Source: Petrosia ficiformis (lineage: Eukaryota > Porifera > Demospongiae > Haplosclerida > Petrosiidae). From it: DNA of 64,000 nt. Position 1 is the stretch's first letter. Every line of letters starts with the position of its first letter. A model generated the notes under the pieces. That model searched no databases, had not been told where the DNA came from, and was given only the letters and a program-made list of their open reading frames with translations. The stretch covers positions 22,787,466 through 22,851,465 of the forward strand of contig OX345636.1 in assembly GCA_947044365.1 (NCBI GenBank), given 5' to 3'. The translations under genes were made by a program, and so were the position numbers. Below, in pieces: positions 45,863-54,905 of the stretch.

Positions 45863-48800
45863 ATGGCTACTGGTGAGTGAATTACTCTTCATTTCTTGTT
45901 ACAAACACTATATATATATTATATTATGTATAATTATATAATTATAATATGTAAGGTAATGTCATGCCACGAGTGCTATATCAGGTTTATAATCACGAGG
46001 CCAGAGGGCGAAGTAATTATAAGCCTGATATTGCAGTTTCATGATTTCAAAATACTGCTTAGTGAAGCCACAAAGCACACAGTGCATGTATCAAACCTAG
46101 TCTGGCACGGCCGCACCCTTCGCTGGAGGAGGAAGGGTCTGGTAACAGCAGCACGAACGAGTTGTGGAGTGTAGCAAGAATTCCTGCTACACTGTTCTAC
46201 GCAAATAATTAGCCCCAAAAATGCAAACGTAATAATCACCTTGAAAATATGGCTGAAAAGAAGTGTGAGATTGAGTATAACCAAGTGTGCACAATGTTCT
46301 TGCAGGATTATTGGTTACACAGCGCTGAAAAAGGAGCAAAGATTAGTGATATCAGAGTTTATTAGTGACAGGAGATGTTTTTGCTACATGTATGTCACCA
46401 ACCAGGTATGGCAAAAGCATGTGTTTTGCCTGCCTGGCAAAAGCCTATGACAAATTAAGAGACACTACTGGTAGTATCACAGTCGTTGTGACGCCTCTCG
46501 ATCTCGTTGCTATTATGGACAGTATGGTAAAGCAATACGAACACAGGGCATGCGTGTTAGTGAGTCACACCTTTTTCTGGTAATTAAAATTCCAGCTTTA
46601 TAGTAATTAAATTCTATTTCCACAACTCGTTCATGCTGCTGTTACCAGAACCCAAGCGAAGAGTATGGCCATGCCAGACTATATCAAACCATGGTGCATC
46701 ATGTATCACATTTATGGCACTCAGAAGCTTTGAAGTGTGGCTCATCATGACATACTGATATATATTATATATATATCGAGTTACTCATATCTCTTGAAAA
46801 TGTGCGGTTATTAATAAACAAAATTAATGATAATTACTATTTTACAATGTTTATTATTATAATACATGTAATTATATATTTTAATCTGTGTGTTACTTGT
46901 CATGTAAATACAATCATTTATTATCAGATGAATATCAGTTGAGATGGAGAACTGCCAACTCGACCATAGTCATTAAAGATAATTTATACTGCTGGGAAGG
47001 ATTCCAGGAAGACGTTCCTAAAGTACATGACAATGAAGACACGAGGAAGATATCATCTGTTGATGTATTTCATTTACAAACATTCAAATGGGAGAGGAAA
47101 TCTACTACAGGTATTCCACCTTCAGGATGTTTGAGTTATGCTTGCACTAACATAAAGGAAAATATCTACTACTTTGGAGGAAAATGTAAACCTCTACATT
47201 CTTATCTCGACGATCTGTATGAACTCAACACTATTACTGATAACTGGAGACAGTTTACTAGCAGTACTCCTGATAATTCACCAATGAAAAAACGTGGCTG
47301 TGGAATGATATCATTCAATATCGATGGAGAAGATAATTTATTACTTGTGGGAGGATTCGGACCAACTCCAGTTACTAAACACACCCATTCTCAGTATGTT
47401 CCTCATCCCGATTACCCAAATGACTCCATCACAAACGAAGTACACATTATGTGTATTTCCTTATTACCAGGTATTACATGACTCACAACATGTATTATAT
47501 CATAATAATTATATCATGTATATTCTCCAGGTGAATGGAAAATACCTGTCATAACAGGTACTCGTCCACCAGCGTGTTCTGATTTTACCATCAACACACT
47601 TCCTGGTAACAGGGGTGTAATATTTGGAGGGTACACTATTGATGAGACTGGTGAAAATTTAGTTGATGATTTGTTTATGTTTACATGTTCACTCAATGCA
47701 ATAGTGAGTTAACAATAATATTGTTAAGTTTTTAATAATTATTGCTGATCATGTGACCTGTGGCCAATCAGAGTGCAGATAATGTGTTACATGATTGAAC
47801 ATTAAATCACTTAACGTTTACGTGCAATAAGATAGTTATTGCACACTTTCCTCACTTATACTAATGAAGCCGCTCCAACAACAGTGGTAGTTCACCAGAT
47901 CGTCACTTATAACACACTTGACAGTGCATTGTGTGTTTCAATGTAGCACTTGGGCGGTCAATAAAGGTCTCGTTTACATAATGTACTCACCTTTGGCTTG
48001 TGCATTATGTAAACTCAACCTTTATTGACCTGCCCTCATGCTACATTAAAACACTTAATCACACTAAACTGTGTTATAATTATTACTTATACATGTACAT
48101 GTAATATTAAATGTGAAGGAGGTTTTAGTGGATATAATTCAAGGCCCATATACTATCATGTTATTATCAAAAATGTTTACTGTTGTGTTTGTTAGTAAAT
48201 AGTAACAACTCAAAATGTCTACAAGTAATAATGTTATAATCCACTTGTAAACCACACCCCTTACAATCAACTTTTAATTAGTGACTGTTGACGTCATTGA
48301 TGTATATGTGTATTACTAATATAGGATTTTCAGAAAGTAATCAAATCAATTGATACTGGAGTGAACTGGCCAAAAAGGAGGAATCTACATGCTGGTACTG
48401 TCGTCAATACTATATCAAATAAAGTAGTGACATCTCATTTGGTTATATTGGGTGGATTGGATGAGTTTGGTAACACGCTAAACGACTGTTGGATAATAAA
48501 TTTATCTACCTTTATCTGGTATCAGGTAATCTACATGTACATCACATGACACATTTAATTAATTTATGATGTATCAGTTTTGTTATCAAATATTAATATT
48601 GAAATACTGGTATATCACAAATGAGTTAAAAGTGTTATCATTACATTTTTATTAAATGGAACATACTCTTTCTTATAATAATGTGTTCTTTGATTTATGA
48701 CATGTACCATATTGTTGATTTATTCATCCTTTCAGATATGTCTTCCTGACTCAGTTACTGAGAGAAATAGCCACTCCATGACAACATACCCGATATCCAA

Positions 48801-54800: not shown

Positions 54801-54905
54801 CATGTGACATGGGAAATGATTCTTGATGTACTGGGAAAATTTGGAAGAGAAGACATTGCAAGGGAAGTTAGAACATATTTGGAAGAAGAATCCTATGATA
54901 AATAA
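45863..54905 (+). CDS. kelch - coiled coil - ZU5 - death-domain protein, 17 exons
   Basis: Exons: 45863-45872, 46928-47470, 47531-47703, 48325-48525, 48736-48895, 51815-52029, 52096-52234, 52289-52351, 52430-52564, 52658-52738, 52782-53003, 53058-53567, 53620-53723, 53771-53920, 54080-54281, 54366-54443, 54583-54905; 3309 nt (1102 aa), phases agree. Residues 1-362 are kelch-like blades (IYYFGGKCKPLHSYLDDLYE, VILGGLDEFGNTLNDCWIIN). Residues 363-647 are coiled coil. Residues 650-790 are ZU5-like (YGFKLHFPQGTISPSDTCEV). About 818-995 is a linker that may be UPA-like. The last 100 residues form a death-like fold (SASWNDFGRVLKVDSNYREK, TWEMILDVLGKFGREDIARE). ZU5 plus death is known from UNC5, ankyrin and PIDD; a kelch sensor in front is unusual. 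The likely role is intracellular signalling by death-fold assembly (inference). The 10-bp first exon and the acceptor of exon 6 (TAAG) are the least certain parts. Confidence 0.8.
46098..46681. mobile_element. TIR element with 9-bp target copies carrying a RecQ-like fragment
   Basis: Starts TAGTCTGGCACGGCC and ends GGCCATGCCAGACTA. TATCAAACC stands on both sides (46089-46097 and 46682-46690), and the related empty site near 50610 has it once. The interior ends pair further (CCTTCGCT and AGCGAAG; GTAACAGCAGCA and TGCTGCTGTTAC). Nine-base target copies are usual for Mutator-like elements. It carries coding-like DNA (46248-46583). Confidence 0.75.
46248..46583 (+). pseudogene. RecQ-helicase-like N-terminal fragment captured in a TIR element
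   Basis: Frame one starts MAEKKCEIEYNQVCTMFLQD. A second frame gives LKKEQRLVISEFISDR. A third continues GDVFATCMSPTRYGKSMCF, then KLRDTTGSITVVVTPLD and AIMDSMVKQYEHRACVL. Together these follow the order of RecQ-type helicases: a region before motif I, motif I (usually LPTGYGKS), motif Ia (VVSPL). The frame changes show that it is broken, and the helicase motifs after Ia are missing. Walker Lys is kept in RYGKS. It is bounded by the terminal repeats of the element, which suggests gene-fragment capture. Confidence 0.55.
47935..48055. repeat. hairpin element in an intron
   Basis: GTGTGTTTCAATGTAGCA and GGTCAATAAAGGT with GTTTACATAATG pair with CATTATGTAAAC, CCTTTATTGACC and TGCTACATTAAAACAC. 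Short non-coding inverted-repeat element between exons 3 and 4 of the kelch-ZU5-death gene. Confidence 0.65.
49294..50353. mobile_element. TIR element CTCAATTAAAAGTTCC containing a TTAA element
   Basis: Left end CTCAATTAAAAGTTCCTGTA, right end TTACGGGAACTTTTTATTGAG shortened to matching bases, inverted. Both flanking arms are rich in TACTAC/GTAGTA and TACGTA motifs. The centre is replaced by the TTAA-bounded insert 49453-50205. It lies in the 2.9-kb intron 5 of the kelch-ZU5-death gene. Confidence 0.6.
49453..50205. mobile_element. TTAA-bounded element with three internal tandem units
   Basis: TTAACCCTTTC at left and GAAAGAGTTAA at right. The inside has three related units of about 150-160 bp, each with AAGAAAGC...GATACCAAAAAGATG-like blocks, GTTTGAAAGTGTAGTAGTCA and CAACGC-type boxes. 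No ORF of note. The ends fit piggyBac-type mobilisation, more weakly than 34675-35271. Confidence 0.55.
50427..50670. mobile_element. GTGCTATATCA-type element, uninterrupted copy
   Basis: GGTTATGTCATTTCATTAGT, the hairpin arms GTGCTATATCAGGTTTA and TTATAAGCCTGATATTGCAC, then ACATATCAAACCACAGTGCA and GCTTTGAAGGGTGGCTTCAT. It provides the empty-site reference for the insertion at 46098. Confidence 0.65.
51500..51678. mobile_element. CAATAAAAAGTCACCATAC-type MITE, copy 4
   Basis: Ends TAATAAAAAGTCACCATACA and TATGGTGACTTTTTATTG. It ends 136 bp before exon 6 of the kelch-ZU5-death gene. Confidence 0.75.

Follow-up and report, generated by a model that had tools for sequence, protein, structure and literature searches.

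What does a sponge cell make of a gene in which kelch repeats, a long coiled coil, a ZU5 domain and a death domain are strung along a single reading frame, and could its product serve as an intracellular sensor? Such a gene lies on the plus strand at positions 45863-54905 of a 64,000-nucleotide stretch of the Petrosia ficiformis genome (contig OX345636.1; hereafter, the window). The answer that we favor, and hold to be probable, is that this locus specifies one cytosolic sensor-adaptor in which the propeller would bind a ligand, the coiled coil would oligomerise the chains, and a ZU5-UPA core would restrain and then release the death domain for signalling. The gene itself is an apparently intact member of a very large sponge family, which couples a variable propeller, probably a sensor, to a switch-and-signal module of the type found in human inflammasome and cell-death proteins.

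Gene model and domain composition

As the original prediction proposed, 17 exons splice together in phase and close with a single terminal stop codon, with GT..AG borders at all 16 introns; each of exons 2-15 offers one stop-free frame, which is the frame required by the join. The predicted length of about 1102 residues, however, had to be revised. A first in-phase model with exon 6 starting at 51815 yielded 1102-1103 residues, near that figure, and was rejected because this start would carry 13 residues of intron sequence into the protein. A better acceptor lies at 51854 (ctcatcacgtag up to the junction, CATATATT from it onwards), so that exon 6 appears to have been set ~40 bases too early. 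An acceptor of this type recurs, with its phase, in seven of nine fetched paralogs (L074-L077, L079, L081, and L082), the other two (L078 and L080) being minus-strand loci unreadable in this comparison, and the same seven paralogs place the exon 6 donor at 52032. The corrected borders give a protein of 1090 residues. The 10-base exon 1 with its donor (ATGGCTACTG followed by GTRAGT) recurred unchanged in eight of the 30 kelch loci, counting the window's own, and near matches occurred in others, four minus-strand loci among the 30 having been read on the wrong side. The features of the gene, in window coordinates, are as follows.

45863..45872, plus strand: exon 1, ATGGCTACTG, with the start codon; exon and donor in 8/30 kelch loci
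46928..47470, plus strand: exon 2, kelch propeller; Pfam PF24681 1.2e-29; at least 150 genome matches
47531..47703, plus strand: exon 3, kelch propeller, by homology to Amphimedon protein P0002
48325..48525, plus strand: exon 4, kelch propeller; Kelch_3 match
48736..48895, plus strand: exon 5, last kelch blade minus its final strand; blade assigned by eye
51854..52032, plus strand: exon 6, from the final strand of the last blade into the linker/coiled coil; acceptor and donor from paralogs
52096-52234, 52289-52351, 52430-52564, 52658-52738, and 52782-53003, plus strand: exons 7-11, coiled coil; heptad-like charged stretches
53058..53567, plus strand: exon 12, ZU5 domain with an acidic tail; Pfam ZU5 20.5 bits and fold of relatives
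53468..53482, plus strand: candidate self-cleavage position, residues 773-777 (N-I-Y-N-C), by motif comparison with relatives
53620-53723, 53771-53920, and 54080-54281, plus strand: exons 13-15, UPA domain by identity to the modelled proteins P0024 and P0014
54366..54443, plus strand: exon 16, linker, from the joined gene model
54583..54905, plus strand: exon 17, death domain and stop; Pfam Death 25.7 bits; at least 150 genome matches

The predicted kelch repeats were recovered by a Pfam scan of the window protein, with PF24681 scoring 103.6 bits (cut-off 50; 1.2e-29) and Kelch_6, Kelch_3, Kelch_4, and Kelch_1 also above their cut-offs. Counted by eye, the propeller has six blades, and since the final strand of the sixth lies in exon 6, exons 1-5 alone encode an incomplete propeller. 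The coiled coil is likewise in place: read from the sequence and not by a coiled-coil predictor, this part shows heptad-like charged stretches and three prolines in 266 residues. Pfam ZU5 (PF00791, cut-off 21) scored 20.5 bits when the exon-12 segment was scanned by itself and 17 bits over the full chain, and exon 12 is 50% and 48% identical to the relatives P0024 and P0014, respectively, whose predicted models contain the ZU5 fold. Directly after ZU5, the same models match NLRP1, CARD8, and UNC5b over the UPA domain. Exons 13-15 are 31-32% identical to both relatives and, by the predicted fold of those relatives, are a UPA domain, which had been overlooked and called a linker. The predicted ZU5-UPA core of the relatives matches ankyrin, UNC5b, NLRP1, and CARD8; ankyrin-B and UNC5b lead the Foldseek results, and ankyrin-B is the best match. 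For Pfam Death (PF00531, cut-off 22.6), exon 17 by itself scored 25.7 bits, and the whole-protein scan gave 21.6, slightly below that threshold. The ZU5 fold, in relatives, and a death domain were both found, in keeping with the original proposal. No hydrophobic segment is evident (maximum 19-residue mean hydropathy 1.15), which points to a cytosolic protein. The Pfam scan detected neither BTB nor F-box, neither NACHT nor leucine-rich repeats (LRR), which are features of NLRs, and no ankyrin, Ig, or TSP match.

Relatives also support the exon 5-6 join and, with it, the view that this is one gene, as first proposed. The alignment with the Amphimedon protein A0A1X7UV64 (P0002) runs across the junction, where exon 6 supplies the last propeller strand (VIIELAYINEWTV / IIELIYSEAGEWIV). 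Of the 76 exon-6 matches in the Petrosia genome, 71 are preceded by a kelch match within 15 kb and in the same orientation, as opposed to one with a kelch match on the other strand; kelch and ZU5 are united in one chain in 33 of the 58 retrieved proteins, all of them predicted.

Upstream of the gene, on the same strand, a Gln/Pro-rich open frame of 314 residues (window 44695-45639) stops ~220 bases 5' of the start codon, where a neighbouring gene probably terminates. Elsewhere in the window, minus-strand frames at 61463-61990 and 62249-62773, downstream of the gene, contain text resembling reverse transcriptase (FWNRYVDDTCTAI) and are apparently what is left of a retroelement. The minus strand at 36715-37101 reads HLVAHTHDDVGWLKTVDEYYYGG, which resembles the N-terminal part of an alpha-mannosidase, and 6053-7009 is occupied by a long minisatellite that stays in frame and repeats LDDRHNQF.PILLDDRASTYIN for about 318 codons.

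A sponge family that shuffles its ends

The assembly comprises 191.2 Mb in 29 contigs, with the window on the largest; the available text of PMC12648040 gives chromosomes 1, 2, 3, and 8 of Petrosia ficiformis odPetFici3.1 as 63.28, 16.0, 11.43, and 7.09 Mb. Exon-wise genome searches, in which the best 150 candidates were scored per exon and the window's own exons were counted, returned at least 150 matches each for kelch exon 2 (best 150 of 260 candidates), ZU5 exon 12 (best 150 of 384), UPA exon 15 (best 150 of 235), and death exon 17 (best 150 of 305), and 76 for exon 6, all 88 candidates of which were scored. Thirty-six of these 76 are followed by a ZU5 match ahead of the next kelch, and 22 of the 36 extend to exon 15 as well; among the matches listed, only the window's exon-6 chain also reaches a death exon. 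Again among the matches listed, and within 12 kb, 52 of 150 kelch matches have a ZU5 match downstream in the same orientation, 20 have one upstream in that orientation (these loci form clusters), and one has it on the other strand. A second locus on chromosome 1 (near 58.12-58.13 Mb) has matches to kelch, ZU5, exon 15, and death in the same order, with no listed exon-6 match. Other members end or are built differently: the C-terminus of paralogs L084-L086 is not Death but a helical domain homologous to that of 20 retrieved proteins, and L066 on chromosome 2 is a kelch-coiled coil-death gene without ZU5. The window gene therefore represents a Death-terminated form within a family whose members exchange their ends.

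Several further observations concern the family and its genomic setting. It forms large clusters with near-identical repeated copies at 55.4-61.1 Mb of chromosome 1 and 5.1-8.6 Mb of chromosome 3; chromosome 1 is ~4x the length of the next chromosome and may have grown via such duplications. A seven-helix C-terminal domain is common to Petrosia and Amphimedon (ends of L084-L086, residues 1051-1160 of P0005, and 626-731 of P0014), with no Pfam match above cut-off and no clear fold match. Finally, locus L002 (chromosome 8: 1929063-1932239) has on its minus strand a PIDD-like open frame of 703 residues, in which LRR-like text precedes two ZU5-like stretches that both terminate in HFS (TPHFSLF and VHHFSLF); with a Pfam match for ZU5 and its other domains assigned by eye, it resembles a canonical PIDD of sponge origin.

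Outside Petrosia, three protein searches, whose reach is limited to relatives sharing five-residue words, retrieved 58 different proteins, 55 of them named Amphimedon queenslandica and the remaining three being P0048, P0056, and P0057. A local profile search divided them into 28 with kelch, ZU5, and UPA, five with kelch and ZU5, 19 with ZU5 and UPA, four with ZU5 only, and two with UPA only. A search of other sponges for the same architecture had been suggested; the kelch-coiled coil-ZU5-UPA part recurs in Amphimedon, but the window's death domain was unmatched at E 1e-3 in the 28 kelch-ZU5-UPA proteins. Several relatives are named in UniProt for a C-terminal CARD, with fold support in P0024. 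N-terminal partners of the core also vary, and include Death (P0006, P0010, P0029, and P0033), ankyrin repeats (P0044 and P0048), and, in P0031, a stretch resembling the COR of ROCO proteins that scores 32.3 bits, below its cut-off of 35.3. In two Amphimedon proteins, an AAA helicase (P0036) and a nucleoside phosphorylase (P0041) are fused before ZU5-UPA, and the C-terminal end of P0036 also matches the CARD segment of P0002; both are candidate nucleic-acid or nucleotide sensors on the same core.

The architecture is thus far from isolated, contrary to the original prediction, and its Amphimedon members have entries in UniProt and NCBI, where they are labelled uncharacterised or as containing a CARD, Death, or ZU5 domain. 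These database entries notwithstanding, no description of a kelch-coiled coil-ZU5-UPA-death fold architecture was found in the literature searched. Zhang et al. 2012 devote one sentence to a lineage-specific expansion of sponge ZU5 with a possible defence role, and the word kelch is absent from the main text of that paper as available (PMC3482391). It is likewise absent from the available text of Kaur et al. 2021, which reports 357 Amphimedon TRADD-N proteins in architectures mostly with Death-like domains (PMC8195603), and from that of a 2026 paper on sponge NLRs, which counts 128 DEATH and 39 CARD genes in Dysidea avara (PMC12909245). The accessible part of another study mentions a "Kelch motif containing gene" whose expression was lowered in each of two sponge species under microbial patterns (PMC6208332).

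Sequence change and a candidate cleavage site

We compared the kelch and ZU5 parts of the family by the Nei-Gojobori ratio of non-synonymous to synonymous substitution rates (dN/dS), using pairs with dS <0.6 and kelch and ZU5 sets that come from different genes. Median dN/dS was 0.48 for kelch exon 2 (219 pairs, 30 sequences) and 0.17 for ZU5 exon 12 (365 pairs, 28 of 30 sequences, two with in-frame stops having been dropped), and mean column entropy was 0.98 versus 0.25 bits. In five genes with both exons, pairs with kelch dS >0.1 gave 0.40-0.65 for kelch and 0.18-0.25 for ZU5. Three of these five loci share identical or nearly identical kelch exons (dS at most 0.009) and have differing ZU5 exons (dS 0.05-0.11), which suggests mosaic copying among them. 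In a chromosome 2 cluster, the corresponding ratio of proportions (pN/pS) was 0.76-2.18 over six pairs, with a smallest Fisher p of 0.047, uncorrected. Kelch exons change faster than ZU5 exons, at rates that fit a diversifying sensor and are not proof of positive selection.

According to the available text of PMC3210808, CARD8 and NLRP1 cut themselves at SF-S right before the last ZU5 strand, PIDD and Nup98 do so at HF-S, and serine, threonine, or cysteine can serve in such acyl shifts. The P0024 model has F261-C262 at the corresponding place, where the last ZU5 strand (262-269) starts. A motif search read 48 of the 58 retrieved proteins, with F-C in 32, F-S in 12, P-C in two, Y-C in one, and F-F in one; the ten outside the pattern include P0023 (pair absent), P0011 (P-C by alignment), and P0058 (F-C by alignment). 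In 29 fetched Petrosia paralogs, H-Y-C occurred in 26 (18 distinct tails) and H-N-C in one, with two outside the pattern; L042 and L062 among them contain one stop each. The window copy reads I-Y-N-C at that place, with one inserted residue (Asn) and no His. That the residues at this site are equivalent was not confirmed by profile alignment. Self-cleavage in the family is thus a hypothesis drawn from motifs, and the window copy, going by the usual motif, would not be expected to cut itself. Separately, P0056 (752 residues) is arranged as Death-coiled coil-ZU5-UPA-Death and shows no F-C/H-Y-C pair by eye.

Proposed mechanism, alternatives, and known systems

In NLRP1, CARD8, PIDD, and UNC5b, ZU5-UPA restrains a death-fold domain that is freed by a change in the sensor or by oligomerisation. 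By analogy, the kelch propeller of the window protein would bind a ligand, probably microbial or damage-derived, while its coiled coil would bring chains together and the ZU5-UPA core, as in UNC5b, NLRP1, and CARD8, would hold the death domain at the C-terminus in check. Ligand binding would then lead the core to release or cluster the death domain, which could recruit death-fold adaptors or caspases. An immune-type role, exerted in the manner of NLRP1, CARD8, or PIDD, appears most likely. A more specific version, which we advance only tentatively, would make the family a haplosclerid, kelch-based counterpart of NLRP1, CARD8, and PIDD: cytosolic receptors numbering on the order of a hundred or more, in which the kelch sensors diversify and the death-fold outputs are exchanged. 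Most would cleave themselves at the end of ZU5 with a cysteine nucleophile (HY-C in Petrosia; F-C/F-S in Amphimedon), and the window copy would be uncleaved, possibly constitutively restrained or a decoy.

Several points weigh against a sensor-adaptor. Kelch domains also work in ubiquitin ligases and the cytoskeleton; the window's ZU5 score falls slightly under the Pfam cut-off, its ZU5-UPA fold evidence comes from models of Amphimedon relatives, and the best fold matches, ankyrin and UNC5b, are cores serving cytoskeleton and guidance. Furthermore, kelch dN/dS does not exceed 1 except in the chromosome 2 cluster, the best Fisher p of which is uncorrected. The locus could encode a structural or ubiquitin-ligase scaffold with no immune role, kelch being the substrate receptor, as it commonly is, and ZU5-UPA a cytoskeletal platform of the ankyrin type, as the leading ankyrin-B match would have it. 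We deem this unlikely, since the high copy number, the swapped N- and C-terminal domains, CARD included, and the faster-changing propeller fit a housekeeping scaffold poorly, and BTB and F-box are absent from the Pfam scan. Somewhat less likely still is an allorecognition or symbiont-sorting family, not devoted to pathogen defence, whose kelch variants would read self or symbiont cues. The clustered mosaic copies, with three loci combining (near-)identical kelch and differing ZU5 exons, would suit it, as would the 112 bacterial genome bins recovered from the sequenced sponge (available text of PMC12648040), but hydropathy gives the window protein neither a membrane anchor nor a secretion signal, so any cue must be intracellular. 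Two adjacent genes, kelch (exons 1-5) and coiled coil-ZU5-UPA-death (exons 6-17), are highly improbable: the 2.96-kb intron between them (largely simple repeat by eye), the ZU5-less L066, and the 19 of 58 proteins with ZU5-UPA and no kelch match could be so explained, whereas the propeller strand in exon 6, its recurring acceptor and phase, the same-strand kelch matches upstream, and the fused predicted chains contradict such a split.

If the sensor-adaptor reading is true, one of the earliest-diverging animal lineages expanded, in addition to NLRs, another extensive class of intracellular receptors that sense through kelch, and the ZU5-UPA switch that arms vertebrate NLRP1, CARD8, and PIDD was kept in sponges. 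When the ZU5-UPA-CARD/Death switch acquired an immune function, and whether cysteine can serve in ZU5 self-cleavage, would become testable questions. As Petrosia hosts many bacterial symbionts, host-microbe sorting is another candidate role for this family.

Among known systems, NLRP1 and CARD8 (FIIND, that is, ZU5-UPA, and then CARD) share with the window protein the order ZU5, UPA, death fold and the lack of a membrane segment; relatives match their fold over both ZU5 and UPA, and most carry Phe-Cys or Phe-Ser where the FIIND cleavage site corresponds. The window gene differs in having kelch and coiled coil in front and Death instead of CARD at its end, and its copy lacks an SF-S type motif. 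PIDD1 (LRR-ZU5-ZU5-UPA-Death) likewise combines a repeat sensor with ZU5, UPA, and C-terminal Death; kelch stands where PIDD has LRR, as originally noted, and the window protein has one ZU5, not two, and no HFS. It would work like FIIND proteins and PIDD, yet by the tested features it is a member of neither, because it has no CARD or LRR, one ZU5, and no SFS or HFS. UNC5 receptors and ankyrins, whose combination of ZU5 with death had also been correctly noted, share the ZU5-UPA-Death order, and UNC5b and ankyrin-B lead the Foldseek matches, but the window protein has no ankyrin, Ig, or TSP match and no transmembrane segment. The Amphimedon TRADD-N/death expansion, as far as the available text of PMC8195603 describes it, shares hundreds of death-fold proteins with swapped partners, and is centred on TRADD-N, not kelch-ZU5-UPA. 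The same kelch-coiled coil-ZU5-UPA order is found in Amphimedon P0002 (30% identity over 71%), and the kelch-ZU5-UPA proteins of that sponge differ from the window protein in their C-terminus, which is a CARD-like or other helical domain.

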